In this document: piece after piece, positions 1 through 64,000 of the stretch | How the letters are laid out: the number at the start of each line of letters is the position of its first letter | How positions within the stretch are numbered: position 1 is the first letter of the stretch | Source of the DNA: Tridacna crocea | Taxonomy: Eukaryota > Mollusca > Bivalvia > Cardiida > Cardiidae | Direction of reading: 5' to 3' | NCBI GenBank assembly: GCA_943736015.1 | Contig: OX031061.1 | Location: forward strand, 57,232,192-57,296,191 | DNA length: 64,000 bases | Made by a program: the position numbers and the translations under genes | Notes under the pieces: model-generated | What the model was told of the DNA's origin: nothing | The model's database searches: none | The model's input: only the letters and a program-made list of their open reading frames with translations

Positions 1-390
1 AAAAATGACAATCAGACAACGAAAACATTCTCCATAATTTTACTTTACTTCAAAATGGCACTAAATTTTCAGGAATTATAGCAAATTAACACTTACAGTG
101 TTGATTAAACCCCACAGATTTGTTATGTTTAGAAATAAGACTTAAATAACGATCTATCACAGTTGCTTTTGCCTAAAGTGTAATAGGAAATCAGACAGTT
201 TAGATCAAAGATCAGACTGCATGTTTTATGCAGTCTTATCTTAAACTATACTGTCTGCAAAGACAACTTTATAGGTGCTTTATGGGTTAATATACATAAA
301 ATACATCCACATGTTGTTTGTTAATCTGAAAAATTTTATATTTACTTAAAAAGAAGGCATTATAAACATACTGACATAAACTATTTTTAC

Positions 391-552
391 CTCCTGTATA
401 AAATCTTTGGTCCTTCATCTTTTTCTTGTTTTTCTTCTTTTTACAGAGCCATATGGAGAAAATACACAAAAACAGCCATAGCATCACCCCCACAGTCCCA
501 ATCAACAACCCCAAAAACCAGGGCTTCTTGAATAAATCTATCTCCTCAGGTT
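391..552 (-). CDS. robo: robo exon, transmembrane helix and start of cytoplasmic tail
   Basis: Phase 1-1, 162 bases. A short acidic juxtamembrane stretch ([12 protein letters not shown]) leads into a hydrophobic helix ([18 protein letters not shown]) ending FSIWL, which matches the end of the helix in Robo proteins, then a stop-transfer run [18 protein letters not shown]. Acceptor tatttacag, donor gtaaaa. The conserved cytoplasmic motifs would be encoded before base 1. Confidence 0.93.
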
Positions 553-3500
553 CTGTAAATACATAATTCCCATAATGTTATAGCCTAAATACCTGCATAG
601 AGAAAACAATGAAAAGCATTCAGATTCAAGTCATACCAGGTAAAACTATTGAAATCATTATGAAAATGAGTTGATCCAACAATTTGTATTAGCCACTGGT
701 AGACACATGAATCTTGGAAGGAAGGTCAAAAGTTGCCAGGGAAACAGTCTTTTGTTAAGTTTTTACATTGTTTTAAAATTCATATCTCTGCCATTGAATT
801 TCTCGTGAAATGGGTTCAAATCTAGAATGCCTGCAGATATCGAAATTTTAAAAGTCACATGCACAACTACACATCATAGAGATTCATTGTGGTAAGTTTG
901 AACTTATTCCAATGAAAACTGTAGGTGTAGTTGTGGACACAAGAATCTGCTAATAGTCGGACAAATGGACGAAAAACCGAGGCCATAACATAATACATGT
1001 ACGACCCTTCGGGTGTATAAAAAAGGGGCATGGTCACCTTCCCATGTGATATAGGATCCTCTTTGTATAATAATTAGTAACTTGTCCAAATTTGAAGTAT
1101 ATTTATTGAAAGATATCATTTAAACCTTTACCACACATTGACAACTTTTAACGTCCCTGAGGAAAAAGCCTTTTAAAAACATTGTGGGAAAAGGAGAAAA
1201 TGCTGGTAACCAGCATTTTCTCCTCTTCCCACAAAGTTTTCTACCCAATCAAAAGCAAAATTGCACCATTTGAGCAACTTTGAAATTGTCATCTGCAAAT
1301 GCTTTTATTTTGGATAAGTCTAAATTTTTGCTGTGTGGTAAGGGGTTAATGTTCATGTCAAAGTTTTTTCATGATGTAGACCCAAAAGCCAGGGCTAAGA
1401 CCATAACTCCATGATTTTCGAAAAAAATTTCAAGCTAAAAAATTTCAAATACTTACCCTCATTGGTTATTGGTTTCAAAGTCGAGGCATCTCTACTGTCA
1501 GCTGTATAAACTTCTCCTTTGCCTGAAAGTTATGAAAACAGGAAGAAAATATAAGCAAAGCCATGTTTCTCTTGAAATCTCATTGTGCAACTTAACCCTT
1601 TCCCACACAATCCTAATTTTTATCGACTTTGAGGTAAATGGTATTTGAAAACATTGTGGGAAAAGGAGAAAATGCTGGTAACCAGCATTTTCTCCTTTTC
1701 ACACGTTTTCAACCCTTTCTGATACATGAGCCATCATTTGAATTTCATCTTATTTGTTGTCTTTCAATTTGGTTAAGTCTTAAGTTTTGTGGTTTGGTGA
1801 AGATTTAACACCAGCACTTTATCCTTTTCAAAATATTTTCTAGCTTCTTATTCCTTCAACCCTCTACTGCATAATGATAACCCTGTAAAAAGAATGCTAT
1901 AGAAAACACTGGAAAGAAGAGAACATTCCAGCGAGCAGCATTTTCTCTTTTTCAAGATCAAGTTCACACTTCATCAGGGTAATTAACTCATAACCACAAG
2001 ACAATATTTTAGACTGGTCCAAATTGAAAGCATTTGCAGACGACAAAATAAAAGTGACTGAAAATTTGAAATTTGTATTGTGAAGGGTAGAAAACATTGT
2101 GGGAAAAAGAGAAAATGCTGGTTACCAGCATTTCCTCCTTTTCCTACAATGTTTTCTAAAGGCTTCTTTCTCAGTAGCGTCAAAAGTAGGGATTGTGTGG
2201 TAATGGGTTAATCCTTTACCAAACAACAACGTTTTAGATTGGTCCAAACTGAAAGCACTCTGAGATGACAAAATAAACATAACTCAAAAATTAAACTTTG
2301 TTTCCAGCAGAGTAGAAAACATCATGGGAAAAGTAGAAAATGCTGGTTACCAGCATTTTCTACTTTTCCCCACATGTTTCTCAAAGGCTTCTCTCTCAGG
2401 GCCATAAAAAAAACCAGGGATTGTTTGGTAAAGGGTTAAAACTTAGAATTGCTTGGTACAGGGTAAAAAGCTTCAGTTTGTACTACATAAAATTGCCATA
2501 TTCTTTTTATCGAACAATCTTTTAAAACTTAAAATCTGACAAACAAAGCAATGATTCAACAGCTATGATCTCATTGAAAATAACTCAATCTAGATATAAA
2601 ATGACCAATACAGCCATTTGAATGGGATATGCGTGTTTCGCATTCGCGATGATGGAATACCATTTCATGATCCTGAATATGCACACAAAAGCTGTAATTC
2701 AATAATATTTGCATTAGAAAACAAATTTCATAAATAGTTGATAGCTTCGCACATTAGCAAACACAAAAATACAGGTTTCATGTTCTCACAAAGACATTAA
2801 TCTGTCAACTTTTGACCAAACTAAAAGTATTTGGACTGGACCAAATTGAAAGTATTTGCAGACAACAAATTCGGTGTTGCTTAAATGTTGATTTCTGTTT
2901 ATAATTGGGTAGAAAACAATGTGGGAGAAAAGAGAAAATGCTGGTTACCAGCATTTTCTTCTTTTCCCACAATGTTTTAAAATGCCCTCTATGTCACGGT
3001 CCTCAAAACTCGGAACTGTGTGTTAAAGAGTTAATGTACAATGCCGACCCTTGAATAGAAAGCCTTTGAAAACATTGTGGGAAAAGGAGAAAATGCTAGT
3101 AACCAGCATTTTTTTCTTTTACCCACAATGTTTTCTAACCTTATCAGAATAATTTCAATCATTTGATTGATATACAATTTGTTGTCTGCAAAAGCTTCCA
3201 ATTTGGACCAGTCTTATAAATTGTCATTAGACAAAGAATGAATTCTGATCTCCCAGAAATCAATTTTCACATCTATCAGGACATTGTGATGCCACTTTGA
3301 ATGCAGCAATAATTCTTGTCCATTTTCACAAGGCATTTTTTCCCTGCAAGTTACTTTTCCGGAACAAACTCTTCTTCGCCCTTTATCAAATTATCCTTGT
3401 TTTAACAATAGTGAAGAAAACATTGTATGAAAAGGAAGAAATCCTGGCAGCAAGCGAGCTGGTAACCAGTATTCCAGCGAGCTGCCCACCATTGTTTTCT

Positions 3501-6500
3501 CATTGTCCCTCAATTTTTTCAAAAGCCTTTTTTCTTGAGTGTTCTTCAAACAAAGTAATGTTGAGTAAATGAAAAGAAATATTTGTCACAAATCGTCAAA
3601 TATATCATGTGAAAGTATTTCATGTCAGGCTTAATCTGCTATCAGGATTGGAGCGACTTTAATTCTGTTGTCTGCAAAATTAAATGGTTTCAATTTGGAC
3701 CAGTCTTAAATTTTGCCCTTTGGTACAGATTTAACCCTTTCCCAAACGACAAACTTTTGGACTAGACCAAATTGAAAGCATTTGCAGATGACAATTCAAC
3801 TCTTGCTGAAAAGATGATTTCGGTCTATGATAGGGTAGAAAACATTGTGGGAAAAGGAGAAAATGCTGGTTACCAGCATTTTCTCCTTTTCCCACAATGT
3901 TTTCAAAAGGCTACTGTTCTAGACCTGTAAAAACCAGCAATTGTTTGGGAAAGGGTTAAAGAACTCTGGTCTTCATTCTCTCAATGGCTATTGTGGTTGA
4001 GCAACTCATATCATTAAGACAATTTTTCAAAACTCAATTTATTACCCGAAGAATATTCTACGTCATAATTCTTAGACTACAAATAATTCAATCCCATCGT
4101 TTTATTCACACCATCTAACGAGCAGAATGGTTAATAATTCCCGAGTCGTGGTATTGTATGTGTCAATAATCGTATCATTTTGTCCGATCAGTTTACAAAT
4201 ACCATAAATTCTGTAATAATACACCGCTCAGCATCCGTCCCTCCTACCCAATATCCATTTATCACTGTGGTGAATGAACATGAGTTATCACTCAGTTTAT
4301 CATTAATCTATATTGAATGACAAAATACATTAACCCATTACAAATAAACATACAACTTTTTCTAATTGCCCATGCAGTGATCAGTCTTTGGAAACATTGT
4401 AGGAACAGAAACAATAATGCCTGTTATAGGCAATTGTTTCTTTTCCCACAATGTTTTCCTAATCCCTCTTAAAGTACATTTTGTTTCCTTAACCCTTTAC
4501 TACACAACAAAATTTAAGACTCTTCAGAATTGAAAACACAAGCAGCGGAAGAAATTAATGTTTAACTCTAAAACTGAAATTTGTTTCCAGCAGGGTAGAA
4601 AACATTGTGGGAAAAGGAGAAAATGCTGGTTACCAGCATTTTCTCCTTTTCCCACAATGTTTTCAAAAAGCTTCTATCTCAGCATTGTAAAGACCAAACA
4701 TTGTTTGGTAAATGGTTAAAATATCAAGTTGCTTGTAGTATTACAAAGAAAACTGCCTATTATGGTTATGGAATTACCAATAGTCAACAACTCGTCAATT
4801 TCTCAATACCCTGCAATCGAGGTTTATCTCTTGAATTAGTGATTCCTGGCAATACTTTTCTAATCAAAATGATTTTTTCCAACCTATATTTGACTGATCC
4901 TATCCTAAGAAATTTGACACAAAGCTAGAGCTATCACTATATGTGATTATACCCCCCACCAGCTCCTTGTCATAAAAACAGGTCTTTATCACATCACAGA
5001 ATACAGAATGGTATAGTACGATAGTAAGAGTTGAAAAAAGTTCAAGGGGAGATAATTCCGCTACAAATCACAGCAGGATCATGAAAATTGTACATGGGCA
5101 ACTTCACATATATAGCAACCATGTGCATTAATTTAAGTTCAGTATTTGAAAAGCTGTAGGAGTATTGCTTCGGACAAATTTGTGTCGATGGAGGGACAGA
5201 CATAGCGATTGCAGTATACCCCCTCCACTACGACGTGGGGGGTATAAAAACAAGAAAGCTAATTCCCATTATCAGGAAAATACATAAACATTTTTTCATT
5301 TTGTAGCAAGTGCAGGTTGAGATCAGCCTGCAAAGAACACACTGGAACACTTTTTCTACAATAAACTTGATTAGATATCGTTCCCTAAAGCTTTTGGCCA
5401 GGGCAGCAAAGACAACGCAGAAAATGAGTCACTATTCCCGGCGTGAAATGAAAATATCTATTTTGTACTTGACAGATTACAAACAAATCTCAGGCTAAAA
5501 AAATACTCCCAATATTTCAGAACTTATTCATTCCTTGGTACAAGATCTTTTTCTTCCATTAAATAAACAAAACCATTTTATCAAAAATCATATTTATACA
5601 TTGTCAAAGATACCTGTTAATCCTTCAAAGCACTAAAAGCATTTCGTGAAATCTAAGATTTTCTAAACAACAAGTTAAATCATACAGAAATACAGCCCTG
5701 AGTCCTGAGACAGTATTGACTGTATTAAGTTAATGTACCCAAGGGACACACAAATCATTGAGGTTTCAACAGGACGCCTATTAACTCTTTACCAAACAAC
5801 AAAATTTTGGATTATCCCAAATTGAAAGCATTTGCAGATGACAATATCAATGTGAATCAAAAATAGAATTTTGAATTGGAAAAGGTAGAAAACATTGTGG
5901 GAAAAGGAGAAAATGCTGGTTACCAGCATTTTCTCCTTTTCCCACAATGTTTTCAAAGGCTTTCTTTCTCAGGGTCTTTAAAAGTCGGGATTGAGTGGTA
6001 AAGAGTTAAACACATTACCAAATGGTACCCTGTTTTGATGACCATGTGAAAAAAAGGATTTTCAAAATATTGAAGAAAAAGGTGAAAATGCTGGTAACCA
6101 GCATTTTTACTTTTTCTTCCATGTTTTTTCCCACAATGTTTTCAAAGGCTTTCTTTCTCAGGGTCTTTAAAATTGGGATTGAGTGGTAAAGAGTTAAACA
6201 CATTACCAAATGGTACCCTGTTTTGATGACCATGTGAAAAAAAGGATTTTCAAAATATTGAAGAAAAAGGTGAAAATGCTGGTAACCAGCATTTTTACTT
6301 TTTCTTCCATGTTTTCTGTCCTTTCAAAGAAGAAAACCAGTATCAGAGCAAAATCAAAATGCCAATGCTATCAATCGAAACAAATCTAGAATTTTGTACT
6401 GCAAGAAAAAGAGTTGAACACTCTTAAAGCCAAGCTGAGGAAGAACACTTTGGAAAATATTTTGCAGACTTCTAACCAGTCATTAAGAAATTTAGTTCAT

Positions 6501-9500
6501 TTGAACCGTTTTTAAACTTGGTGTCCGCAGATGCTTTCAAATTTGAAGGTTCTAAAGTTTGTCAAATGGAAAAGGGTTAAATCTTTATTCTAACATGACA
6601 CTCGAATTTGGCTCTATAAACACAGTGCAAGGAAAACGTGGTAAAATCTGCGACAATCCATGTAGAGTGACGTCATTCAATGAGTGAGTTATTCAATGGA
6701 ATATAATCTTCATCAGCGTTTTTACTCTTAGTTTGAACTTGTTTTCCTTTCATTAAGAATTGGCCATGTTAGAATCGAAATAATCTTCTTTCTATCGTGG
6801 TATATCATTCAATAAACCACGTTATGAGTTATGAGGCGCAATGAATAACCCACTTGGGCTATCGCCCTCGTGGATTATTTATTGTGCCTCATAACTCACA
6901 TCTGTGGTTTACTGAACAATATACCACGATAGAAAGAAGATTATTCTTAAATATCTTCTGTCAGAGAAGCTTTCTGTTATTATCTAACCCTTTACCAAAC
7001 AATTCTATGTTTTCAAATCAGTAAGGATAGAGTCTTTTCAAAACATATATGAAGCTTCCTTTTTTAATTCTTTACCACATAATCCCGATTCTTAACGACC
7101 TTAGAAAGAAGCCTTCTGAAAACATTGTGGGAAAAGGAGAAAATGCTGGACACCACAAAGTTTTCTACCCTATCAAAGAAATTTGCATCATTTGATTCGC
7201 CATGAAATTGTCGTCTGCAATTTCTTTCAATTTGGATAAGTCTAAAATTTTGCTGTGTGGAAAAGGGTTAACTAAATCCTTTTTTTCCTTTATAAGGCAC
7301 ACATAATTATTTCAAGTGTTTTTCATTTGTTGTATGCAAAAAAGATCATCTCTAAATTTTCATGGAGTGAGATAGAGTTACTCTCTACATAGCTTTCCTT
7401 TCCAGAAAAATTCTTTTGAACATATCACCATTTACTGCACAATGCCAACAACCTTGAGAAAGAAGCCTATTGAAAACACTGTGGGAAAAGGAGAAAATGC
7501 TACAGTTTTCTAAACCTTCCTCAAACAAGTTTTAACCCTTTACCACACAATGATGACTGTTAATGACCCTGAGGGAGAAGTCTTTTGAAAACATTATGGG
7601 AAAAGGAGAAAACGCTGCCGAACACCATTTTCTCCTTTTCCCATAAAGTTTTCTACCCTATCAAAGAGAAATTGCATGACTTGAGCCACAATGAATTTAT
7701 TGTCTGCAAATGCTTTTAATTTGGACTTGCCTTAACCCATTACCACTCAATCCCTACTTTTGACGCCCCTGAGAAAGAAGCCTTTTGAAAACACTGTAGG
7801 AAAAGGAGAAAATGCTGGTAACCAGCATTTTCTCCTTTTCCCACAGTGTTTTCTACCCTTTCCAGAACAAATTTCTATTTTTCAGTCACCTTTATTTTGT
7901 CGTCTGCAAATGCTTTCAATTTGGACCAGTCCTAAATTTTCTCGTGTGATAATGAGTTAAAATTTGCTGTGTGATAAAGGGTTAATTTTCGTTCACATTT
8001 ATTTTTGTGTCCGCAAATGCTTTCAAGTTGGACCAGTCTAAAACGCTTTTATTTTGGTCATGAGTTAGAGAACCAGTCAAATATTTAAGAATGAGAGACA
8101 TCTTTTATTATCCAACCCAATTCATCCACTGCTATAAACTTTAAAGCAAAATAATTTCCAGCTGTTAAACATTGATAATGCTTTTAAATCTACAGAGAAA
8201 CCCACTCAAAGGAAAATGATCCATCAATTGGAGCTGCCATTACGAAATCACATTTATCTTGAAAAAACAGAATACTAAAATCCTTTGAAATTTCATCAGA
8301 TATTTGACATAACAGATAAAATGCTTAAAAAGAACTATTTAGAAATCACTGAATATTTAACAGCACATTAATGCAAACAATTGTAAAACAAATGCTTCTA
8401 TTTTGAAACAAAAAGCAAGGACAGGAAAATAAATGAGAACTGTACAACCAAACTTTAGTATAGCATGATTTACCTTGTCAGTACTGCAGTTTTGATGAAG
8501 CTGTTTTTTATTTATTAATGGGAAAACCATTTGCTACAGTATGGAAACCAAATGTAGCATAAAGTTTCTCGTTATAGAATAAATTTACCTTAGATGACAA
8601 ATCTGTAACATCAACTAACAGACCTTTTGGAAAAGATACAGTATTTTGTGGAATATAAATTTATCATGACATATATTTTGGCCTGTATTACCAAACACTG
8701 TAAACTGCATTCTTACTGTGACTCCAAAATGAAAATACAGAAATTCTGATTAGCCAAACCTTTCATGGATACTAGTAATACAAATATGGTTTAGCCAATC
8801 AGATTCTGTGTTACTTAGAATGAATTTATCTATACACTAAAACCACAATTACAAGCCAGTCTCCAATGATTGGTGAATGGATCACAGCCCTACCTAAGTA
8901 TGGTATACTTTTAAAAACTTATAAACTGTTCTTTACCCTTTCTGAAACAACCTTTTCTTTGAAAAGAAGTACTTGGCTGTCCACAAATTTTTTGAATTCA
9001 ATCCTGTCAAACATTCAGTGAACCATTTACCACACAACCTGCTATGATACCTTCTGAAAACATGGTGGGAAAAGGAGACAATGCTGGGAACCAGCATTCT
9101 CTCCTTTTCCCACAATGTTTTCTACCCTTCACAAAACAATTTTCAAATTTTCAGTCACATTTTTTTTGTCTTCTGCAAATGCTTTAAATTCGGACAAACC
9201 TAAAATTTTGTCATTTGGTAACGAGTTTAATGTGGCTAAATGATGGAAAATATCTTTCATAAGGTAGACAACATTGTGGGTAAAGGAGAAGATGCTGTTT
9301 ACCAGCATTTTCTCCTTTTCCCATAATGTTTTCAAACTACTTCCTCCTCAGAGTCTGTAAAACTCGGGATTGTGAAGTAAAGGGTGATGGGTCCTTATGA
9401 TAATGTAGCTTTCAGCTCTCCTGAGTGTTCCAATGAAGTATGTAAACAACAAGAGGGCCAAGATGGCCCTGGATCGCTCACCTGAATTTTTGAGATGACC

Positions 9501-12500
9501 ATAGTCTATTTTTTTTTTTAGGTATTGAAACATTGGAACCAAATTTATAATTTTGCCAAGCAATTTTCAAAAGGTCACCTGTAAAAATCATTTCGAAATC
9601 TGACCATCAGTTTCAAAAAGAAGAATTTTTAAGAATTCTTCATTTCTGTATAAGAGCAAGTAGCCCCCATCCATGAGAGCCATGTTTCTTGATGGATCAA
9701 AATTTACAAACAAGTTTTGAAAAGGGTCACCCAAGGAACATCTCTCTGAAATAATTTCAAAATCTGACCAGGGGTTTTAGAGAAAGAGAATTTTAAAGAA
9801 TTTCATCATGTCCATATAGTGCAAGTAGCCCCCATTCACAAGACCATGTTTCTTGATGGATCAAAATTATATGTACAGCTTTTGGAAAGGGTCCCCCAAG
9901 GAACATCTCTGTCAAATTATTTTAAAATCTGACCACAGGTTTCAGAGAAGAAGAATTTTCAAGAATTTCTTCATTTCCATATAGAGCAAGTAGCCCCCAT
10001 TCACTAGAGCCATGTTTCTTGGCCTATCAAAATTTTGCGAACAATTTTAGAAAAGGGTCACCCAAGGAACATCTCTGTGAAATTATTTCAAAATCTGTCC
10101 AGCCATTTCAGAGAAGAAGAATTTTCAAGAATTTCTTCGTTTCTATATAGTGCAAGTAGCCCCCATTCACCAGAGCCATGTTTCTTGACCAATCAAAATT
10201 TTGCGAACAATTTTTGAAAAGGGTAACCCAAGGAACAAGTCTGTGAAATTAGTTCAAAATCTAACCAGCGGTTTTTGAGAAGAAGAATTTTTAAGAATTT
10301 CTTCATTTCTGTATAGTGCAAGAAGCCCCCATTCACCAGAGCCATGTTTCTTGACAGATCAAACTTTCGTGAACAATTTTTGAAAAGGGTCATCCAAGGA
10401 ACATCTCTGTGAAATTATTTTAAAATCTGACCAGCGGTTACAGAGAAGAAGAATTTTTAAGAATTTCTTCATTTCTGTACAGTGCAAGAAGTTTTTCTTG
10501 ACGGATCAAAATTTCACGAACAATTTTTGAAAAGGGTCACCTAAGGAACATCTGTGTGAAATTATTTTAAAATCTGGCCAGCGGTTTCAGAGAAGAATTT
10601 TTAAGAATTTCATCATTTCTGTATAGTGCAAGAAGCCCCCATTCACCAGAGCCATGTTTCTTGACGGATCAAAATTTCACGAACAATTTTTGAAAAGGGT
10701 CACCCAAGGAACATCTGTGTGAAATTATTTTAAAATCTGGCCAGCGGTTTCAGAGAAGAAGATTTTTAAAGAATTTGCTAAAAAATTCCATTTCGTTGCC
10801 ATGGCAACCAGAGTTTTTGACGGAATCAAATTCTGTGAACAATTTTTAAAGAGGACCTCCCAAGGAACATTCCAGCCAAGTTTGGTCCAAATCCGCCCAG
10901 CGGTTTAGGAGGAGTTGATGTTTAAAGAATTGTTGACGACGCACTGACGCACGACGGACACCGGGTGATCCTAAAAGCTCCCCTTGAGCACGTTGTGCTC
11001 AGGTGAGCTAAAAACCAGGGAAATCCGAGCAGAACTTTCTGAATATCATCCTTGTTTATTTAACTCTTTGCCAAACAACAAAATCTTTCAATTTGTTCAA
11101 TTAAAGCAACTGCAGACAATATCAGTCGATAATATGTTGCTCAAATGAAAATACTGGTTTCAAAATGGCCGAAAAAATTGTCGAGTACAGGAAAGTTTGT
11201 TACAAGCACTTTCTTTGTTTCCCTCTACATTTTCAAGTCTTTTATCTGTTGTTAGTCCAAACAAAGGGTTCTTTGCTAAAGAATTAAAACTTTTCTCTAA
11301 TGATAATAACTTTAGATCAAACATCAATTGATTTTTTTCCGTTTCTGACATTGATTCCTTCAGATATATTGAGATCTGCCTTGACATTAACCTTTAACTC
11401 TTTACCAAACGACAGAATTTTAGACTGGTCCAAACTTAACCCATTACCACACAATCCCTACTTTTGACGCCCCTGAGAAAGAAGCCTTTTGAAAATACTG
11501 TGGGAAAAGGAGAAAATGCTGGTAACCAGCATTTTCTCCTTTTCCCACAGTGTTTTCTACCCTTCCCAGAACAAATTTTAATTTTTCAGTCACCTTTATT
11601 TTGTCGTCTGCAAATGCTTTCAATTTGAACCAGTCTAAAATTTTGTCGTGTGGTAAAGAGTTAAAGCATTTGCAGACGACAAAATAAAAGTGACTGAAAA
11701 TATCAAATTTGTTTTGTGAATGGTAGAAAACATTGTGGTTACCAGCATTTTCTCCTCTTTCCACAAAATGTTTCCAAAAGGCTTCTTTCTCAGGGTCGTT
11801 AAAAGTCGGGATTGTGTGGTAAAGATTTAAAACAAAGTTTATGGCTGACAACATTAGAATCTGCCTTTTAGCTCTTTATCACACAATCAGAAGCTTTAAC
11901 AATATCATGGGGGAAAAAATATTTGAAAACACTGAGGGGAAAGGAGAAACCAGCAATTTCTCCTTTCCCCAAAATGTTTTGTAAACCTTCCAATAGTTAG
12001 AATCAATATAAGGCTACATGCGTATAAACTTTGTAACGAAAGTCTGGAAAAAGATCAAGTCTGGGGAAAAAAATTCTTTTCATCTCAAGCAATCTTTTCT
12101 ACCACACATGAAACAATATCTATGTTATATGACATTTCACAACCCAAGCAACCTTTTTTAACCCTTTACCACACAATCCCGACTTTTAACAACTCCATGC
12201 ACAAAGCCTTTTGAAAACATTGTGGGAAAAGGAGAAAATGCTGGTTACCAGCACTTTCTCCTTTTCCCACAATGTTTTATACAATGCTGGAAACAAATTT
12301 CAATTTTTGAGATATGTTTATTTTGTCATCCGCAACTGCTTTGAATGGACCAGCCTAAACTTTTGTTGTTTGGAAAAGAGTTAACGCACATGATAGAGTA
12401 TCTATGATTATGACATTTCATAGCAATGTTGGTAAAACTGGTTTTCTGTACCAGAAGTATGATTGCCAGCAGGTTATAATGTCAACTTCTAAAAGGTTTT

Positions 12501-15500
12501 TATCAACCATAAACCTTTCCTTGTGCACATAAAACCAGATCTGCTAAGGGTGGCATTTGTAACAACAAAGATATTGCAAAGCATTTGAATTCTATTTTTA
12601 TCAAAAAAGTTATCAAGTTTATTTATTTCATTACCAGATGACAAAATTAACGACTCATCCTTTTGGCAACATTTACATGAACCATGCTCTGTGATAACGG
12701 GGCTTAATGCATCAACGAAAAATATCGACCCTGATCAGCTTTCGCTGTCTGCTCAGGCTGATCTGGGCCAAAACTTTTTGCTACTGGCCAATTTTCTGTA
12801 TCTTAACCCTTTCCCAAACAAGCCCTGGTTTTTATGTGTCTGCAGTAAAAATTTTCTGAAAACACTGCGAGAAAAGGAGAAATTGCTCGTAATTTCTCCT
12901 TTTCCCATAGTGTTTTCTACCCTTTTTGAGAACTTTCTGCCATTTTCTCAAAATCTAAAATTGTCCTCTGCTAACTCTTTCAGTATGGAAGAGTCTAAAA
13001 TTTGTCGTTGGGAAAGGGTTAAGGAATTACTTTACTTCATGACTCAGTGAGTTGTTCACTCTTTGCCACCTTATTTCTGCTGACCATTATTTCTTTGATG
13101 GTTATCGGGGAAAGCAGCCAGTGGCTTGGAAAGAAAATTGTGCAGAGTACTGGAAAAAGAGACTCCAGGAGGACATGGATAGGTACACTGGCTGCTGCGA
13201 TATAATTGAAATAATGTTGAAAGCAGCCTTAAACACCATACAATCAATCAATCAATCAAAGTACTGGGTGTCAGTAAGCTTAGCTTGTTTATATCCTTTC
13301 AAAATGAAGAAAGAACCATCGCAGTGAATACATAACTCTTTACCAAACAACAAAATTTTAGACTTGTCCATATTGAAAACACTTTCAGACAACAAAGTAA
13401 ATATGAATTAAAAATTGAAATTTGTCTTGGGAAGGGTAGAAAACATTGTGAGAAAAGGAGAAAATGCTGGTTACCAGCATTTTCTCCTTTTCTCACAATG
13501 TTTTCAAAAGGCTTTCTTTCTCAGGGTCATTAAAAAGTCGGGATTATGTGGTAAAGAGTTAAAACAGTGCTGGATATCTCTGGGCTAAACCTGCTACACA
13601 TTTCTATCCGTACCAAGTAAAGGATACCATTATTGTATCGAATTCAGTGTTCCAGATAACAATCTTTAGTAATCAAGTTACACATTGACAAAACGTGTGT
13701 AAATTGATGCTTTATATCAATAGACTAAAATAAATTATGGTTTATTTTCTCTGTGACAACATTTAACCCATTACCAAACGACAAAATTTTAGACTTGTCC
13801 AAATTGAAAGCATTTGCAGGCAACAAAATAAAGGTGATTGAAAAATTAAAATTTGTTCTGAGAAGGGTAGAAAACACTGTGAGAAAAGGAGAAAGTACTG
13901 GTTACCAGCATTTTCTCCTCTTCCTACTGTGTTTTCAAAAGGCTTCTTTCTCAGGGGCGTCAAAAGTAGGGATTGTGTGGTAATGGGTTAATGCAATGTG
14001 GACAAGATTACTAGCACAGAAACTGTCCCAAAGGAGCTATCCCAAATACTTCACTCTTAAACCAACTAAAGGATAGAAAACATTTTGGGGAAAAAAAAAT
14101 CATGCTGGTAACCAGCATATTCTTCTTTTCCCATGATGTTTTCAAAGGCCTTATTCCCACAGATCATTAAAATGTGAATACTTTGCACAGGATTAACACT
14201 TTACTAAACAACAAAATTTTGGACTCGTCCAAATTGAAAGCATTTGCAGACAACAACATAAATGCAAATAAAATTGAAATTCAATTTAGGAAGGGTAGAA
14301 AACATTGTGGGAAAAGGAGAAAATGCTGGTTACCAGCATTTTCTCCTTTTCCCACAATGTTTTCAAAAGCTTTCATTCTCAGGGTCTTTAGAACTTGGAA
14401 TTGTGTGTTAAAGTTTTAAGTGACTATAAATTCTTTATCTGGCACACCTTTGGACCCTGCAGTAGACTGATTTCATCTTGCATTGGACTTGTTTAGTAGA
14501 CATTGCGGCAAAAGGAGAAAATGCTTGCAACTTACTGTAGATAAAAGCTTCACTCCAGCTGCCTTTTCCTAGGTGTGTTTCTGCGGCTACTCTAATTACA
14601 TAATCTTTTCCGTCTCGAAGCCTCTTTATGACAGTTTGACGTGTTCGGCCATTTGTTGTAATACTGCAGTTGTCTTTTTTATCTTCACTCATGCAGTATA
14701 TCTGAAAGAGACAGGAATATGTAATATAATGGATTAATCCTTTGACCTACAATCCTGCCATTTGATGACCCTGAGAAAGAGGGCTTTTGAAAATGGTGTT
14801 CGAAAAGGAGAAAATGCTATTAACCCTTTATCCCATAAGGCATTTCTATGGTATCTCTAATTGACCCTAAATAACAGCAAGGATGAAGCTGTTTCTTATG
14901 TGTATATGACATCTTTTGATAGCATAGAAAACTTTGTGGCAAAAGGTGAAATTGCTCGTCACGAGCAATTTCACCTTTTGCAACAATGTTTTCCAAAGGC
15001 TCCTACAAGCAATGCGTAGAAATGAGTATCTATGGAGTAAAGGGTTAAATGCATTTCCGCCTATACTTACAAGTTTTTTCAAGGATAAATTTTGTCATTT
15101 TGGCCTCTTTTCAATTGTTGTTTTCAAATACTTTCAAATTTGACCTGTCTAAAATTTTGCCGGTTGGTTAAGAATTTACTTATTTACAGACAATAACTTC
15201 CATTAACAACTTAGTAGTAAAATACAGATTATCAGCATGAATTCAAGTTTAATCAACATGGAAATAAAAGTGAAAACATTGTGATAATATTATGGTTATA
15301 TTCAGACACTTAACCCTTTACTCCATAGATACTCATTTTGACATATCAACAACAGACAGCTTTTGAAAACATTGTGGGAAAAGGAGAAATTGCTCGTAAC
15401 GAGCAATTTCTCCTTTTCCCACAAAGTTTTCTTCTCAATCAGATATTTGTATTCTCATTAGTCCATATTTGTGACATCATATCTTTATTTGCTGCTGAAA

Positions 15501-18500
15501 TGGAAGAGCCTCAAATTGGTGTATCAGGTAAAGGGGTAAGGTACCAAAATCATAATTTCTTTAACTCTTAACACCCACTGACCACTAATAATGACCCTGA
15601 GGAAGAAGCCTTTTGAAAACATTGTGGGAAAAGGAGACATTGCTAGTAACCATCATTTTTCCTTTTCCCACAAAGTTTTCAACCCTATCAAAGAAATATT
15701 GCGCCATTTGAGCTAGAATGAAATTGTTGTCTGCAAATGCTTTTAACTCATTACCAAACAACAAAATTATAGACCGCACCAAACTGAAAGCATTTGCAGA
15801 TGACAAATAAACCTGGCTAAAAACTTGAAATTTGTTTTGTGAAGGGTAGAAAACATTGTGAGAAAGGGAGAAAATGCTGGTTACCAGCATTTTCTCCTTT
15901 TCCCTCAATGTTTTCTAAAGGCATCTTTCTCAGGGTTGTCAAAAGTAGGGATTGTGTGGTAATGGGTTAATTTGGATAGGACTGAAATTTTGGTGTATGG
16001 TTAAGAGTTCAATCAAAGCTCAATACCTGATATCCAGTGATAATAAAGTGTCCTTTTTCCATTTTTGGAGGTTTCCAAGCCACAGACACCATGCTGTTTG
16101 AGATCCGTTCTATTTCAATATCTTCTGGTGGCCCCGGTGTATCTGAAATCATGCATATACAAGATATTACGAAGGTGTGTAAAAATATCCAGAGAGGATG
16201 GAGAATTCATAGTGACTTGGCTTGTTAAATAATCATCATTTCTGAAAGTCACAAGTCACTAAGTATAAGTTTCTGGGGAAACTTAGTTGATGAAAGCATT
16301 TGCTGAAGACAAAATTAATGCGACTCAAAAATAGGAACTTGTTCTGTGGGGGTAGAAAATATTGTGGGAAGAGGAGAAAATGATGGTTTCCAGTAATTTC
16401 TCTTTTTTCCCCACAATATTTTCAAAAGGCTACTTTCTCAGAGTCCTGAAAACCTAGTGTTTGGTAAAAAGATTTAAATTCTTAACCCTTTACTCCATAG
16501 ATACTCATTTCTAGGCATTACTTGAAGGAGCCTTTGGAAAACATTGTGGCAAAAAGTGAAATTGCTTGTGACGAGCAATTTCAGCTTTTGTCACAATGTT
16601 TTCTATGCTTTCAAAAGGTCTTACATACACATAAGAAAGGAACTTCATCCTTGCTGTTATTTAGGGTCAATAAGACATACCAAAGAAATGCCCTGTGGGG
16701 TAAAGGGTTAAAGAAATACCCAACAGACATGGTAACAAAACTCTACAATTTTTTGACACCACTAGTTAGCTCTTTACCTAACAACACAATTCAAGGCTGG
16801 TCCAAACTGACATGCCACAAATGGACTAATTGTAAAAAGTTTCAACCGAGGTCAGAGCATGGCGTATGCAAATAGCAAATGTGACAAAATTTTTCACATG
16901 TCCCAAATTTGTTTTGGCTCAACATATGAGATTTATCTTTTAACGACTATACAACAAAATTGTACACTGGTCCAATTTGAAAGCACTTGCAGACGACAAA
17001 ATAACGGCATCTCAAAATTTGAAATTTGTTTCCAGCAGGGTAGAAAACATTGTGGGAAAAGGAGAAAATGCTGATTACCAGCATTTTCTCCTTTTCCTAC
17101 AATGTTTTCGAAAGGCTTCCACCTCAGGGACGTAAAAACCAGGGATTGTTTGGGAAAGGGTTAAAATGATAGAAAAACACAAGAGCTTTGCAAGGCAAAA
17201 GCATGTAATCCAAAAGCCACTTGTCAGTGAAAAAGGTTAAAATCTAGAATGCCTGCAGATATCCAAATTGTACCAGCAACAAGCACAACTTCAAATCATA
17301 GAGATTTATTGTTGTAAGTTTAAACTTATTCCAATGAAAACTGTAGGAGTTGCACGCACAAAAAATTGCTAACAGGTAGACAGACAGACGGGCAGACGGA
17401 CAAAGGACTGGGGCCATGACATAATACCACTGTTCAAGCGTATAACAAAGTGGAAAAAAGGACAAAATGCTACTAGTTACTAGAATTTTTCTCTTATTTC
17501 CACAATGTTTTGAAAAGCCTTTTCAGGATAGTTTGGTAAAGATTCCATACTTACAATTTTCAGCAGTCTGCACTTTTACAGGACTACTACAACGAGACTT
17601 GGTGTTGTGACTGAAGCCGAGCACACACAGCTCGTACCAGCTGTAACTTGTTAGCCCAGTTATCGTGTAGGTGGTCAATGTTGGTGGTACTCTCACAGAC
17701 AAAACTTTACCGTAATCAAGCCGTCTAATGTCTATGATGTGACGGTATTCTATCTGAAAACCTTCTATGATGTCGTCAGACTTGAGTACCTATTGAGTGA
17801 AGTAATCCAGATTGATCAATTTTCCCAGAAGCCTACTACTTTTTTCTAACTCATTACCAAACGACAAAGTTTTAGGTCTGTCAAAATCAAAAGCAATTGC
17901 AGATGACAAAGTCAAAGTGACTGAAAATTTAAAATTTGTATTGTGAAGGGTAGAAAACATTGTGGGAAAAGGAGAAAATGCTGGTTACCAGCATTTTCTC
18001 CTTTTCCCGCAATGTTTTCTAAAGGCTTTTATCTCAGGGTCATCAAAACTAGGGATTGTTTGGTAATGGGTTAAATATAATAAAGCCTTTGAATATATTA
18101 CATCAATGTTGTTGAAACCAACAAAATGAAAAAGGCTACTTCTCTATTCTGTCAGAAATGTGTTCTTAATCGATTCCATATGGTCTGTAATATCCAAATA
18201 GGAGCTTTCAGGCATTTGCATAGTGTCATCTTGAATCAGCCTGCACAGTACATACAGCCTAATCCGAGACGGCTCTTTACCTAAACATAAGATTTTGTCC
18301 AATAGCTGACTTGTGTGAAACAAAACATCACACATGATCGGAAAGTGTTATCTCGGATCAGCCTGTGTGGACTGCACAGGCTGATCCGAGCTGACACTTT
18401 CACACTGACACTCATGTCCCAATGCCCCTTTTCACATGTTGCATAGAGTAGCAAATTAAACGTTTACCTAAACATTCGCTGATTTTAACGACCCTGAGAT

Positions 18501-45500: not shown

Positions 45501-48500
45501 ACAGACAGACAGACAGACAGACAGAAGATCGGGAGCCATAACATGCCTTTGAGTGTATAAAAATGAGAATGCAACATTCAAACTTGCTATCTCTTTGTAC
45601 TTGTGTGCAGTCTGATCTTTGCCTTCACTAAGGAAAGGCAACTACTGTTATGAAAGCTACTATATGGATCAACATGTAGATTTTGTACTTACGTCTTGTG
45701 AGTCTTTTCTCCAGAAGACAGTGGGTGGCGGGTTGCCCTTTGCAACACACTGTAGTGTTACGGTTCTGCCCTTGGCAACAACCTGATCTTTGGGCCGGAT
45801 TAAAAACGATGGTGGAGCTAAAATATAAACATTCGTTTTGCAGGGGTATAAAAATCTTTCTTTAAGCTACATTTAATTTGTTGTGTGCAGAATCTGATGC
45901 TTTTAATTTAGCATCCAATATTTTGTTGTTTGGTAAAGAGTTAACTCATTACCACACGAGAAAGTTTTGGACTGGTCCAAATTGAAAGCATTTGCAGACG
46001 ACAAAATAAAGGTGACTGAAAAATTGATTTTTTTTCTGGGAAGGGTAGAAAACACTGTTGGAAAAGGAGAAAATGCTGGTTACCAGCATTTTCTCCTTTT
46101 CCAACAGTGTTTTCAAAAGGCTTCTTTCTCAGGGGCGTCAAAAGTAGGGATTGAGTGGTAATGGGTTAAAAAGACAAAACCCAATTGTACCAGAATAAAA
46201 CAAGCTTACATGCTTATATTCATATACTTACATAGTACAACCAGTCGTGCGGAGGCTTTTGTTGACCCTGCTGCATTTTCAGCTGTACATTCGTACACCC
46301 CCTCATCACTGGGTTCTACATTGTCAATGCGCAAAGTTTTGTCCGATAAAATTCGAGCCCTGAAATAATATTACACATGATAGTTACCAACAACAACATA
46401 AAACCTATTTGTAGATACAAGGCTAAATCCTTTATGACTCTTGAGAAAGAAGCCTTTTGGAAAACATTGTGGGAAAAGGAGTAAATGCTGGTAAACCAGC
46501 ATTTTCTTCTTTTCCCACAATGTTTTCTTGCTGGAGACAAATTTCAATTTTTGAATTACATTTAGTTTGTTGTCTGCAAGCGCTTTCATTAATTTTGTTG
46601 TTCGGTAAAGAGTTAACTCTATAGCTTATTTGCGGTCACACGACTAGCCGAAATACCGGAATACCGCCGAAACACCGGAATACCCCAAAAATCGATAATC
46701 CCTGTTACGTTTGTTGGCCGGGCCGGAATACTGATATTTACCGATACTATTTCAACGTGAAATTCTTTTAAATGTGATGATGTTAACAATATCGACTCAA
46801 AATCAGAGAGAAGTGGGAAAAAAAGAAGTTACCGGGATCATTTCGAGACCATGATTTGTTTATACTAGATTTTCACGCGAAAGTTCTTCTGTCGGTCTTC
46901 TTGTGTCATAATGTTTACCAATTCAAAACAAAACCTGGTAAAGATCGGGAAAATGTGAAGTATCTAGAAGAATTTTGCGACGTAAATTTTCCATTCTTAA
47001 AAAAAACACACAAATCACTTCTAGTACAAGACATTCGCCACCATGTCATCTTCTAAAACACCGGAATAGCCCCCATCATCGAGAAATGTACAGAACGCTG
47101 AAGTCGAGCCGGAATACCCGTAGGTCTACGCCACATGTATTTACTTTTTGATTGATAAAACTATGAATTCGGTCGTTTTCCGAATTCTGACTGTTTTATA
47201 AAAAAAAAAAAGCATTGAGAATGTGTGATTCTCTCTTTCCCCCGTCCCCCTTTCAGTTTTCAGAAAGTTCTTTTAACAGCCTTACAAATACCGAGAGAAA
47301 AATGGTGAAAAGGTCGCAAAAAGTATTATGTTGTTATGCCCGTAATGAGTTTGCAAGCAAAGTTTCTTCTCAATGATAAATAATCGAAATTGCACGTTAT
47401 AAAAATAATTCGCAACCACGTCAACTTCAAAAACACCCGAATAGCCCCTAAAACAGTACATGTACAGTACGTTGAAGTCGGGCCGGAATACCCGTAGACC
47501 TCTCTCTTTTCTTGTATATCTGTAACATTTTGATTTTGGTTTTCATTGTAGGGTGATACGCCATGTCTTTTTTTTTTAATTCTTATTTTGGTTTTTTGAC
47601 AAATTGCTGCTCTAAATTGTAATGGAATGCGGAGATTATTTTTGTGTAACAAATTAACCGTGATGGACGCGAGTATAATTCAGACACAGAGCGCAAAATC
47701 AAGAGGCCAAAGGTAAGTAATTTTGGTTTTTCAGTTTCTAACGATTCCCTTTTCCTTTTAAGTTATGAAAAAAAAGGAAATGTTGTTTGATCATCAATGA
47801 TGTAAAACTTGATATGTTTGCAAGCCAGCCGGAATACCGCTACTGCTTGTAATTTTAGTATACAGTGTTCCTACATGTGAACGGTTCCTATGCCAGTTTC
47901 GAATATTGGGAAAATGTAAATTGCCCGAGATCGACTCGTTGCTCGAATTCTCTCTCGTTTTCCCCACATTATTCACATGCGAAAGTTCTAAAGAAAGCCT
48001 TGAAACTGTCGAGACAAAATCGTGAAAAGATCGGGGATGGTACGAAGTACTTGTAATCAGCGTGGAAACAGAATTCTTCTCAAAAATTTTCTCTTCCAAA
48101 TCAAAAAAAGAAATTCAGGGACATACGCAACCACGTTATCTTTAAAAACAACGGAATAGACCCTCAATGGTACGGTGAAGTCGGACCGGAATACCCATAG
48201 TTACACACTGTTAAATTGTACAGATTTAGCTCTCGCATTATGACTTGTAAGTTGTATAACGTTACCTTACATGTAAGTCGGCTGGAAAAGTCGTTAAGAA
48301 TGGGGGAAAATCCAAAGACATTCTGAAAGATCTGATTGAAAAATGCCAGTTTGGAACTTGCTTGGACATTGTATGGGTTATCATGTTTTTTTCCCCCCAT
48401 GTCAAGTAACTTTTGTTACGCATTTAAGCATTATATTGTGTTCCTAAGAACATTTCAAGAGCCCAGAAAAATTACAGTTACGGAGAAGAAGCAAAACAAA

Positions 48501-51500: not shown

Positions 51501-54500
51501 TTACAAGATTGATGATCAAACAACATTTCCTTTTTTTTTCATAACTTAAAAGGAAAAGGGAATTGTTAAAAACTGAAAAACCAAAAGTACTTACCTTTGG
51601 CCTCTTGATTTTGCGCTCTGTGTCTGAATTATACTCGCGTCCATCTCGGTTAATTTGTTACACAAAAACAATCTGCGCTTTCCATTACAATTTAGAGCAG
51701 CAATTTGTCAAAAAAGCATACAACAAAATAAGAATTAAAAAAAAAGACATGGCGTATCACCCTACATAGTACAATGAAAACCAAAATCAAAATGTTAAAA
51801 TACACAAGAAAAGAGAGGGTCTACGGGTATTCCGGCCCGACTTCAACGTACTGTACATGTATTGATTTAGGGGCTATTCAGGTGTTTTTGAAGTTGACGT
51901 GGTTGCCAATAACTTTTATAAAGTGCAACTTCTATTATTTATTATTGAGAGGAAACAACTTTGCTTGCAAACTCATTACGGGCATAACTACATAATACTT
52001 TTTGCGACCTCTTCACCATTTTTCTCTCGATATTTGTAAGGCTGACTAAAGAACTTTCTGAAAACTGAAAGGGGGACGGGGGAAAGAGAGAATCACACAT
52101 TCTCAATGCTTTTTTCTTTTATAAAACAAAGTCTGAATTCGGAAAACGACCGAATTCATAATTTAATAAATCAAAAAGTTAATACATGTGGCGTAGACCT
52201 ACGGGTATTCCGGCTCGACTTCTGTTCGACTCGTTCTGTACATTTCTCGATGATGGGGGCTATTCCGGTGTTTTAGAAGATGACATGGTGGCGAATGTCT
52301 TGTACTAGAAGCGATTTGTGTTTTTTTTTTAAGAATGGAAAATTTACGTCGCAAAATTCTTCTAGATACTTCACATTTTCCCGATCTTTACCAGGTTTTG
52401 TTTTGAAATAGTAAACTTTATGACACAACAAGACCGACAGAAGCGTAAAAATCTAGTATAAACAAATCATGGTCTCGAAATGATCCCGGTAACTTCTTTT
52501 TTTCCCACTTCTCTCTGATTTTGAGTCGATATTGTTAACATCATCACATTTAAAAGAATTTCACGTTGAAATAGTATCGGTAAATATCAGTATTCCGGCC
52601 CGGCCAACAAACGTAACAGGGATTATCGATTTTTGGGGTATTCCGGTGTTTCGGCGGTATTCCGGTATTTCGGCTAGTCGTGTGACCCGCTTATTTGCAT
52701 TCATAGTGGTGGTCTGCAAAATGCTTTCAATTTACACAATATCTGCATCTGGCAAACTCTGTACTTTGATCAGATGGGCTGATAAAGTGAGACTTTAACC
52801 CTAAATCAACTAATCCTATGTTTTTAACACTGACAGAGAATGCCTTTCGTAAACTTTGTGAGAAAAGGAGAAAATGCTGGTTACTAGCAATTTTTCCTTT
52901 TCTCTACAATGTTTTCTCCTCTTTTAAATTTGATTCTTTGAGTGATATTTCATTTATGATCTGCAATTAGTTTAAGTCCAAATTTTTGTCATCGGCGAAA
53001 AGGTAACGATATCTCACACTCTGACAGTGAAGATCCAAGATCTGGATCAGAATTCACCAGTTATTTCTTAAAAAGTTTTCAGTCTAATTCTCCAGAATTT
53101 CCTCAATTTGCAAATAACACAACTTCTAATTGGCTAAACCATTTGGTTTAGCCAATTAGAGGGAGTGTTACTTTCAAATGATTGTTGAAAATCTTGGTGA
53201 ATAAGACGACTATTCTTAACCCTTTCCCAAACGATAAATTTTGGACCATTCCAAACCGAAAGAGTTTGCAGACGACAATTTCAGACTTAGAGAAAATGGC
53301 AGAAAGTTCTCAAAAAGGGTAGAAAACACTGTGGGAAAAGGAGAAATTGCTCGTTACGAGCAATTTCTCCTTTTCCCACAGTGTTTTCAAAAGTCTTTTA
53401 CTGCAGGCACGTAAAAACCAGAGCTTGTTTGGGAAAGGGTTAAAAGAAAGTTGTTGAATACAGACCCAGTTTGCATCAACTGATCTTGCTGTAAACCATC
53501 ATAATTATACTTAATGCGATATCTTGGCTAAAATGACCTTGACACTTTCAACAGCTGGGCTTTTTCTGTTGACTGAAGAGTATTATTTTAAAGCTCTATT
53601 TTTTTCCTTTTGACTGTGATTCCTAAGCTGTGTGCCATGTTTCTGATGAATATTGTAACCCCTAGTCTTGGAATCCTTAATTCTAAATAGTTTGAACCTA
53701 CAGGCTACGTTCTACACCTTACATCTATCTGTAGCCTTATAGGCCATCTTTACATTTTGACCCTCTGTCAAACAATCCTGGAAAAGAAGCCTTCTGAAAG
53801 CATTATGCTAAAGGGAGATAGTAAAACTTTTGCTATTTTTCCAGCATTTTTTCAAAAGCGTCAAACTGCAGGAATATTGTGTCACATTACTATAAAAAGT
53901 TATTACTAAAGGTTACTCCGTTCAGAGGTGGTTGACCCCTAGAATACACAGATGTAGAGACCAGTTTGTTCGACTAGCTAATGCTGTGAGAAAAATCTCT
54001 GTCTCGCTGACTTCTGTAACACTGCGAGATACTTGTCGTTGTCTAGATGACAGCAATGGATAAATATTTACGCATTACTCACAACATTTGCATCTATATA
54101 AACTTTTATTAGCCAAACTTTTTCTCAAATTACAGACTCCTTCCAAAATGCCGACAATTAAAGACTACAAGTTAAAATCATCCCCAAATGCTGACATCCG
54201 TCTTCAATGTGGTAGAAAACATTGTAGGGCAAGGAAAAAATGCTGGTAACGTGCATTTTTTTCCTTTTCCAGCAAGGTTTTCACAAGTAGCTCTCGTCTG
54301 GGTCATTGAATGAAAGGATTTCTAGGTACAGGATTCAGACAAGATGTTTGTTTATTCCAACTGTTCAGGAAAAATTGAAACATGACAGACAGAAAAAATA
54401 TAGTCCTCTTAAGGTGGTTATAATTCAAATATAGTCCTCTTAACTCTTTACCACACAAGAAAATTTTAGACTGGTTCAAATTGAAAGCATTTGCAGACGA

Positions 54501-58264: not shown

Positions 58265-58493
58265 TTAACTCTTTACCACACGAGAAAATTTTAGACTGGT
58301 CCAAATTGAAAGCATTTGCAGACGACAAAATAAAAGTAACTGAAAAATTAAAATCTGGTTTGGGAAGGGTAGAAAACACTGTGGGAAAAGGAGAAAATGC
58401 TGGTTACCAGCATTTTCTCCTTTTCTCACAGTGTTTTCAAAAGGATTCTCTCTCAGGGTCGTTAAAAGTCGGGATTGTGTGGTAGAGAGTTAA
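58265..58493 (+). mobile_element. TTAA-hairpin MITE, subgroup A1, 229 bp
   Basis: ttaactctttaccacacgag to gtgtggtagagagttaa. Confidence 0.92.
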
Positions 58494-58718
58494 CCCTTTC
58501 CCAAAAAATCCCTGGTTTCTACGACCCGGAGCAAGAAGCCTTTTGAAAACATTGTGGGACAAGGCGAAAATGCTGGTAACCAGCATTTTCTCCTTTTCCC
58601 ACAATGTTTTCTACCCTGCTGTAAACAAATTTCAATTTTTAAGTTGGGTTTATTTTGTCGTGTGCAAGTGCTTTCAATCTCGACCAGTTTAAAATCTTGT
58701 TGTTTGGTAAAGGGTTAA
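58490..58718 (-). mobile_element. TTAA-hairpin MITE, type A, 229 bp, sharing TTAA with previous
   Basis: ttaaccctttcccaaaaaat to gtttggtaaagggttaa. Confidence 0.9.
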
Positions 58719-58772
58719 GGTCTGTGAGATTAGAATTCTACAGACAACCATAGGTACTTTTTCTGAAACCAT

Positions 58773-62023: not shown

Positions 62024-62264
62024 ATTTTTGGGGTACCATCTGAAGCCCACACGCTTTTGATGTTATATGTGAGCACGAATCACATTTCAGACGCGTTTTC
62101 ATAATCGTCGTGCGATAGCATACATCCCTTTCCATTTCTCTAACGTTTTCTGCCTCACATTTTAACCTCGATGATTGCATTTGACTGCAGTATTAACGAT
62201 GTAGTTTACAATGATAGAACACATCTCATGTGTCGTTTGTTCTCTAGTAGGCAGGAAAAAATTG

Positions 62265-62705: not shown

Positions 62706-63631
62706 ATGGACCGGGAAAAAATGATTAAATTTTACATTGCGTGGAAGTCATATTTTTTCGGTAGGCCTACTTGATTCCCTGTAAGCGAAATGAGCCGAAC
62801 ATTAGAGTGCCTTACGCTTGCGAAGGAATTCGTCGAGTCACTCAGCCGAGAATTGTTAATACGTTACGGATATATTTTCAAAGTGATTCTTTACATTGAT
62901 AATTGGGTAAAACAATTTATAACTTGAATTTTAAAATTGTTGAAGTATGTTGAAAAGAATTTTCGACAGGTGTTAGAAGGAATTAAAGTACATATAGATG
63001 ATTTCTTAATGTCATTTTTAATCTACGATAAATTATCAGTTATGTGCATTGTTTGAAAATGGTAATGTGCCAATATCATTTGGCCATAGAACGGTTTTGG
63101 GGAGACACAATTCCATATGCATGCGCCGATTTCCGAATCAAGTACACCCAATCGAAATAGAAGCTTGCAATCCCTCGGAACGTGATATGCAAGCGTTTTG
63201 GTGACATAAACACCGATCGAGACCCCCGATTTCGGCTGCAAACAAAAATACGCGTTAAAAATCGGACGACTGCGTATCCTAGGATGCATCTGCGTATTTG
63301 ATACGCTTGAAAAGTAGTTTTGTTGCTTTTTCCTATTCCACCTTGCGTAAAATAAGCAAATACGCAGCTTATCTGGGGCTCTGGTTCTTGTAGTGTTTTC
63401 AGTTTCAAAGTCATTTGTAGATTATAAATTATATACAGTGCAAATGATGGTATGCTTAAATGAGTTCAAAACATTGTACAAAAAAGAATTAGATATCCTC
63501 TTCCCTCAATGTTTTCAAAAGTCACCACAAGTCATCATTGTCAAAGTCTGTAAAGTGCAGGTTCATTGGATAAAGAACAAATTCTTCATTTTGCTCATAT
63601 GATGCAGTTTTCCTGCTTGCAAAAATTCATG

Positions 63632-63837
63632 TATAGTCAGAGCTCCAGATAAGAGGGAGTAATGGTATTCTAAAACTATTATTTCTCTTCCAAACCCTAT
63701 GTTGTGGGTACTCATAAGAATCGTCTCAAAGAGACGATTGTAATGAGTACCTGCAACATAGGGTTTAGTGGGAAATACTTAACATTTTCAATTTTGAAAG
63801 CAAAACCTGACTCCCTCTATCTGGAGCTCTGTATTGT
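63632..63837. mobile_element. 194 bp CAGAGCTCCAGATA-ended MITE
   Basis: Element 63638-63831 with ends CAGAGCTCCAGATAAGAGGG and its near-complement ccctctatctggagctctg; flanks TATAGT and TATTGT. Central hairpin aaccctatgttg...caacatagggtt and tcgtctcaaagagacga. Same tip type as 61726-63383. Confidence 0.82.
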
Positions 63838-64000
63838 CAAAAGCTGCCTGTTGCAGACAAAAAAAAAATCCCTGAATTACAGGATTAGCATAAAATGTAA
63901 CAAGATAGAGCTACTCGGATGTCATTTAATCCAATTATTACGAAGCCAAAACCCTGCCAAATACAACAAATTGACTCAAGCCAGACGATCATTACATGGA

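Follow-up and report, generated by a model that had tools for sequence, protein, structure and literature searches.

The 64,000-bp window analysed here (C6:57232192-57296191) is a robo locus in the genome of Tridacna crocea (1,048.8 Mb in 31 contigs), and its introns are packed with copies of a short repeat ending in TTAA. It is well supported by the sequence that these repeats form one large family of piggyBac-derived, non-autonomous miniature inverted-repeat transposable elements (MITEs). We consider it likely that the MITE was mobilised by transposases of the type encoded by two piggyBac elements of the same genome, PB-D and PB-E, that at least one subfamily followed PB-D and, with moderate confidence, that an internal hairpin was kept through amplification. 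The family is a piggyBac-derived MITE of a known kind; the conserved hairpin and the very high abundance make it unusual.

Sliding the palindrome along the window and scoring its 66 paired positions, we found 52 palindrome-like sites when up to 6 mismatches were allowed, 67 with up to 10, 75 with up to 14 and 96 with up to 22. The reversed window gave 0 at every threshold, and one shuffled window gave 0 at up to 22 mismatches. These counts agree with the original prediction of about 75 copies that can be recognised, besides relics, at a spacing of ~600 bases. With up to 3 mismatches allowed, there were 109 tip pairs 100-400 bp apart, a number that includes neighbours paired by chance; their mode was 229 bp (24 pairs), and 51 pairs measured 226-232 bp. 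Thus, the predicted modal length stands, but the claim that nearly all copies have it was too strong, as fragments and pairs of ~190-217 bp also occur. We derived a 229-bp consensus from the 58 copies that measure 222-236 bp and contain a single palindrome (37 plus, 21 minus); six of them show ~0.58-0.63 consensus identity and possibly represent sister families. Matched against these 58 copies (E<1e-8), the family makes up 38.3% of the window bases. The consensus contains TTAA at its ends only. Three tip classes occur, CYCTTTACC, CYCATTACC and CYCTTTCCC; the predicted CYCTTTACCA is therefore one class and not the sole tip. The hairpin itself had been recognised correctly except for its length: with 33-bp arms around a single base, it measures 67 bp (33 + 1 + 33) instead of 65 bp.

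1..64000, coding segments on the minus strand: robo locus with 58 near-full-length MITE copies and fragments (tip pairs, alignment, palindrome scan)
13332..13562, plus strand: MITE copy
54440..54668, plus strand: MITE copy, 94.8% to the window consensus

The abundance extends to the whole genome. The exact sequence TTAACCCTTTACCA occurs 49,668 times forward and 49,843 times reverse (9 and 7 in the backwards control). Exact 31-base palindrome cores number 191,599 (control 0), and the full-length pattern TTAACYCWTTMCC-N188..218-GGKAAWGRGTTAA gave 111,311 matches (control 0). The window contains 31 exact cores vs 11.7 expected at the genome mean (191,599 per 1,048.8 Mb), about 2.7 times the average density. 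We also took 20 random 2-kb samples (40 kb) drawn from those 14 of the 31 contigs whose length was known, and landing on 11. The family was present in 13 of the 20 and covered 13.2% of the bases (bootstrap 8.1-18.7%; reversed control 0); these samples held 4 exact cores vs 7.3 expected at the genome mean. Extrapolating from these 40 kb, the family occupies roughly 139 Mb, about an eighth of the genome.

Candidate partners came from a PF13843 search, which gave at least 118 matches; 30 loci were cut out, and the ends were recognisable in only some of them. PB-D (7,217 bp) is found at two loci, on C3 and C5, which share a 7.2-kb block with 99.64% identity. The block runs exactly from TTAA to TTAA; it is bounded by TTAACCCATTACCGTT and TTAACTCATTACCACT and has the tips CCCATTACCGTT / CTCATTACCACT. 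PB-E (L044 1266-7641; 6,376 bp) has the TTAACTCTTTCCCACACA tip on both ends. The two elements are homologous at the left end (72%), the right end (71%) and the coding part (71%). Their transposase exons match PF13843 with E-values of 2.8e-88 (PB-D, open over 492 codons) and 4.4e-89 (PB-E). Using phmmer, we find that the PB-D exon aligns with piggyBat (9c0f) and piggyBac (6x67) over the SVDE, YFDN and GGVDLHDQ stretches; the alignment to 9c0f extends into the C-terminal Cys/His tail, and the conserved D positions, which include the catalytic residues of the DDD triad, align with both structures. In PB-D and PB-E, an acidic open frame lies upstream of the second exon with the DDE domain, and we read it as a putative first exon. 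Nested MITE copies are present inside both elements. A further locus, L045, is a PB-D relative.

The ends link the MITE to these elements. TTAA stands at both MITE ends (111,311 pattern matches, control 0), and the CYCWTTMCC tips are CCY-type terminal inverted repeats (TIRs). The CC[C/T]T wording in the available text of a coral study (PMC2872659) fits the CCC ends, while some MITE ends here are CTC. The left end of PB-E equals the right end of the MITE at 34 of 38 positions, which take in the TIR and the first TTTTNACGMCCC unit. Such units are spaced by 35 bp at the left ends of PB-D and PB-E (27, 62 and 97, in PB-D also 132; one mismatch allowed), and the MITE has one, at 27. When the first 14 bases were excluded, 0 of 500 shuffles reached the score for either left end; the same test gave 54 of 500 for the right end of PB-D and 89 of 500 for that of PB-E. 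Thus, the MITE shares ends with transposase-encoding piggyBac elements, through the left end of PB-E and through the tips and motif of PB-D, as expected from the original assignment to piggyBac-type TTAA MITEs. The autonomous element called for along with that assignment was found in part: PB-D and PB-E have closely similar tips, but none with exactly CYCTTTACC tips was present among the 30 loci examined (at least 118 matches in all), with ends recognisable in some. Two results weigh against such an origin. The left end of the MITE matches PB-D and PB-E only at the tip. Apart from their nested MITE copies, neither element contained a sequence from which the MITE interior or hairpin could derive.

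The five ends tested of PB-A, PB-B and the L020 family lacked subterminal similarity, with 24-483 of 500 shuffles reaching the score, and we rejected these three families as partners. PB-A (~2,766 bp, TTAA-flanked, tips CCCTTTATATAC) has six copies (L014-L019) up to 99.9% identical and an intact 602-residue frame in four of them, and it appears to have transposed recently. The tips of PB-B are CCCTWGTCATGC, and one end of the L020/L035 family is CCCTTTCAGTGC. Clusters of piggyBac transposase fragments were seen at C8:56.71-56.76 Mb (~50 kb) and C13:4.48-4.61 Mb (~130 kb).

We propose that transposases of the PB-D/PB-E type would excise the MITE and reinsert it at TTAA, and that at least one subfamily would have followed the PB-D transposase lineage with its tip and subterminal alleles. 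PB-D combines the ATTACC tip with a subterminal C, and PB-E combines TTTCCC with A. We read by hand the first 100 full-length matches listed, where the right end was visible in 53. The ATTACC tip went with C in 17, A in 4 and an unreadable base in 1, while the TTTACC tip went with A in 16 and C in 1 (Fisher p=3e-6). The ATTACC vs TTTACC contrast was 11, 5 vs 1, 5 in the window alone (p=0.056) and 13, 6 vs 2, 7 when the window, L001-L008 and the random loci were taken together (p=0.04). Since PB-D has ATTACC + C, MITEs with the ATTACC tip seem to follow PB-D, and MITE lineages may in this manner follow transposase lineages. The TTTCCC-tip MITEs count against extending this to PB-E. They carry T (6), G (6) or A (2), so that only 2 of 14 readable copies share the A of PB-E and the following of PB-E is unsupported. 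T or G in 12 of these 14 (C1 copies) hints at another autonomous partner. The window copies with the CATTACC tip include the following.

7732..7960, minus strand: MITE copy, CATTACC tip + GACGCCC subterminal motif (PB-D-like)
17846..18074, plus strand: MITE copy, CATTACC tip + TTTTGATGACC motif (tip and motif discordant)
29291..29519, minus strand: MITE copy, 95.2% to the window consensus, CATTACC tip + GACGCCC
32073..32301, minus strand: MITE copy, CATTACC tip + GACGCCC
33872..34100, minus strand: MITE copy, CATTACC tip + GACGCCC
35452..35680, minus strand: MITE copy, CATTACC tip + GACGCCC
38822..39050, minus strand: MITE copy, CATTACC tip + GACGCCC
45941..46169, plus strand: MITE copy, CATTACC tip + GACGCCC

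The palindrome lies off-centre in the 229-bp consensus (positions 108-174) and is its most conserved part. Per-column conservation in the 58 copies was 94% at positions 106-172, 85-87% at the tips and 77-79% in the flanking arms. We could assign a tip class to 52 of the 58 copies (6 unclassed). Each of the four tip-class consensuses (26, 12, 8 and 6 copies) has a perfect 33+1+33 hairpin with 0 arm mismatches. From class to class, 4-15 of the 126 flanking-arm sites and 2-7 of the 36 tip sites vary. In the palindrome, the classes differ at 0 of 66 sites or at one pair, pair 8, where this sole change has altered the two arms together (T>C in one, A>G in the other). Over the 58 copies, the flanking arms have about five times as many shared variants as the palindrome.

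3731..3959, plus strand: MITE copy, CCCTTTCCC tip class, perfect 33-bp palindrome arms 3838-3870 / 3872-3904
5781..6009, plus strand: MITE copy, perfect palindrome arms 5888-5920 / 5922-5954
2208..2439, plus strand: MITE copy, symmetric arm change in the palindrome 2317-2379
13763..13991, plus strand: MITE copy, RNA fold -77.4 kcal/mol, z -6.8

With moderate confidence, we suggest that an intact hairpin helps a copy to amplify, as a cis-acting DNA or RNA structure, and that the hairpin would be kept in this way and not by arm-to-arm correction alone. A disfavoured and somewhat unlikely alternative is that quasipalindrome template switching or gene conversion corrects one arm from the other, and the hairpin persists without a role in transposition. 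Symmetric arm changes speak for correction as well as for the retention of hairpins through amplification: there were 83 in 106 non-redundant palindromes, vs a mean of 18.0 and a maximum of 32 in 500 column permutations (104 vs 23.4 in an earlier set of 133 palindromes including near-duplicates). Outside six recurrent pairs, 16 remained vs 7.7 (maximum 17). However, one-sided changes far outnumber symmetric ones in the 106 palindromes (373 vs 83), and 46 types of one-sided change were each present in at least 4 of the 119 copies that could be oriented (14 of the 133 palindromes were not orientable). Singletons can be read both ways. Across all 58 copies, the rate per site is equal in the palindrome (0.011-0.012) and the flanking arms (0.009-0.011), which argues against correction. 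Within the three identity-defined subsets, the palindrome had fewer singletons, at about half the flanking-arm rate for copies of at least 0.88 identity, under half at 0.92 or above and ~0.8 of it at 0.75-0.88; protection after insertion is thus possible.

Several points temper the preference for better amplification of intact copies. The lower singleton rates in those three subsets make protection after insertion conceivable, although the rate over all 58 copies is equal, and the recurrence of the 46 one-sided types also counts against the preference. As for the paired substitutions, 67 of the 83 symmetric changes fall at the six recurrent pairs, and the permutation ignores the relatedness of copies. 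The tip differences between classes arise partly by construction, and majority consensuses of 6-26 copies may mask minor subfamilies. A bolder form of the amplification reading, which we offer tentatively, holds that the hairpin is a selected amplification module kept by paired two-arm substitutions. It would let the MITE out-multiply its piggyBac source, pass from one transposase lineage to another through a swap of tips and the first subterminal repeat, and fill about an eighth of the genome.

The hairpin could also act at the RNA level, where intronic copies would fold into double-stranded RNA and evade or decoy host silencing or yield small RNAs. The single-strand RNA fold of the 13763..13991 copy (-77.4 kcal/mol, z -6.8) and the spread of copies throughout the introns of robo are consistent with this. 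However, hairpins form equally in DNA, and the window had no Rfam match at gathering thresholds; we regard such a role as rather improbable.

The insertion pattern points to transposition. The copy at 11436-11664 splits an older MITE; joined again at one TTAA, the two halves of the older element give a continuous consensus (1-120). Some neighbouring copies have one TTAA in common, as listed below. Spread chiefly by tandem duplication could leave such chains, and a 188-bp tandem duplication (98% identical) lies at 5937-6315. Yet 6 common junctions among 48 strict elements fit random TTAA targeting (mean 4.7, 95% 1-9), so that the chains need no special mechanism. Copies are also dispersed (13 of 20 random samples), and the nested insertion leaves a cleanly rejoined site. 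We therefore reject tandem duplication as the main route and find it very improbable.

1983..2211, plus strand: MITE copy, right TTAA common with the 2208-2439 copy
11436..11664, minus strand: MITE copy, 95.2% to the window consensus, nested at a TTAA of an older MITE
18456..18682, minus strand: MITE copy, first in a three-copy chain with single common TTAAs
18679..18913, plus strand: MITE copy, second in the chain
18910..19140, plus strand: MITE copy, third in the chain
33284..33512, plus strand: MITE copy, TTAA common with 33509-33734
58265..58493, plus strand: MITE copy, TTAA common with 58490-58718 (opposite orientation)
58490..58718, minus strand: MITE copy

A Kolobok-type family, suggested by the TTAA target and the abundant subfamilies of Xenopus T2-MITE (PMC6004289, available text), is barely credible: the tips are CYCWTTMCC and start with CYC instead of the AGGRR/RR terminal motif given there, and the tip-matching autonomous elements encode PF13843, a piggyBac-type transposase, although no Kolobok transposase search was made here.

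The host gene was predicted to be robo, and we compared two coding segments with the PDB, where Roundabout homologs were the best matches.

56840..57110, minus strand: robo immunoglobulin (Ig)-domain exon segment, top PDB match Roundabout homolog 2, zero MITE bases
25100..25343, minus strand: robo Ig-domain exon segment, top PDB match Roundabout homolog 2, zero MITE bases

The E<1e-8 match found no MITE sequence in nine robo Ig, FN3 and transmembrane coding segments. In a domain search of ten coding segments, five were above the cut-off, three had sub-threshold FN3 only, and no relevant domain family was matched in two (the transmembrane segment and 12492-12734). The window also holds a distinct 6.05-kb element at 46634-52687 with near-identical terminal inverted repeats of ~250 bp and GCTTATTTGC on either side (~10-bp duplication). 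It is probably non-autonomous, because the longest frame seen has 141 codons. A 166-bp tandem unit (7.3 copies) lies at 9585-10776 inside the robo locus, and a 188-bp unit (x2.1, 90%) lies at 62287-62680. The duplication at 5937-6315 takes in the right part of a MITE and the start of the next copy and looks recent. Elsewhere, the mitochondrial contig (L039, C31; 29,009 bp) is large for an animal, and its COX1 reads through in the invertebrate code.

It is an open question why some MITEs attain copy numbers in the hundreds of thousands. A single assembly here contains the MITE with its hairpin, its distinct tip classes and related, very similar piggyBac copies; the contribution of tip, subterminal repeat and hairpin to amplification is thus directly testable. 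A bivalve survey left MITEs unclassified, as stated in its available text (PMC10294476). We found no description of the present family in the openly readable literature, a search that covered sources other than subscription journals, Repbase and Dfam.

Among known systems, Xenopus T2-MITE resembles the present MITE in TTAA targeting, long-lived subfamilies and coexisting transposases, and differs in its AGGRR/RR tips and Kolobok transposases (PMC6004289). The transposases of piggyBat and Trichoplusia ni piggyBac (PDB 9c0f, 6x67; PMC11707139, available text) are homologous to that of PB-D over the DDE core, and piggyBat also over the Cys/His domain. At the left end of piggyBat, three motif copies precede an imperfect palindrome, an arrangement that can be compared with the 35-bp repeats of PB-D and PB-E. 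The same text reports that piggyBac-type cysteine-rich domains (CRDs) bind palindromes within the transposon ends. Both systems differ from the MITE in being autonomous and in their short CRD-bound palindromes near the ends (19 bp in piggyBac, 12-14 bp in piggyBat), whereas the 67-bp hairpin of the MITE is internal.

The nearest precedent comes from Acropora corals, with the CMITE families of Wang et al. (2010, PMC2872659). As far as its available text goes, CMITEs share with the present MITE the TTAA target and tandem arrays, and most CMITE families have CCCTTT-type tips. Their piggyBac partner is similar only beside the TIR, and the origin of the other interior is obscure, as it is here. CMITEs differ in size and number, with ~100 bp and ~1,600 copies in A. 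millepora vs 229 bp and 111,311 full-length matches here. The present MITE is further set apart by a consensus hairpin free of mismatches and by the linkage of a tip class to the subterminal allele; a 33-bp-arm hairpin is not described for CMITEs in that text. Conservation in CMITEs is higher in the interior than in the TIRs, which also holds here (94% vs 85-87% at the tips). Tridacna would thus be the second animal lineage, after corals, in which a piggyBac MITE has its internal region better conserved than its ends.

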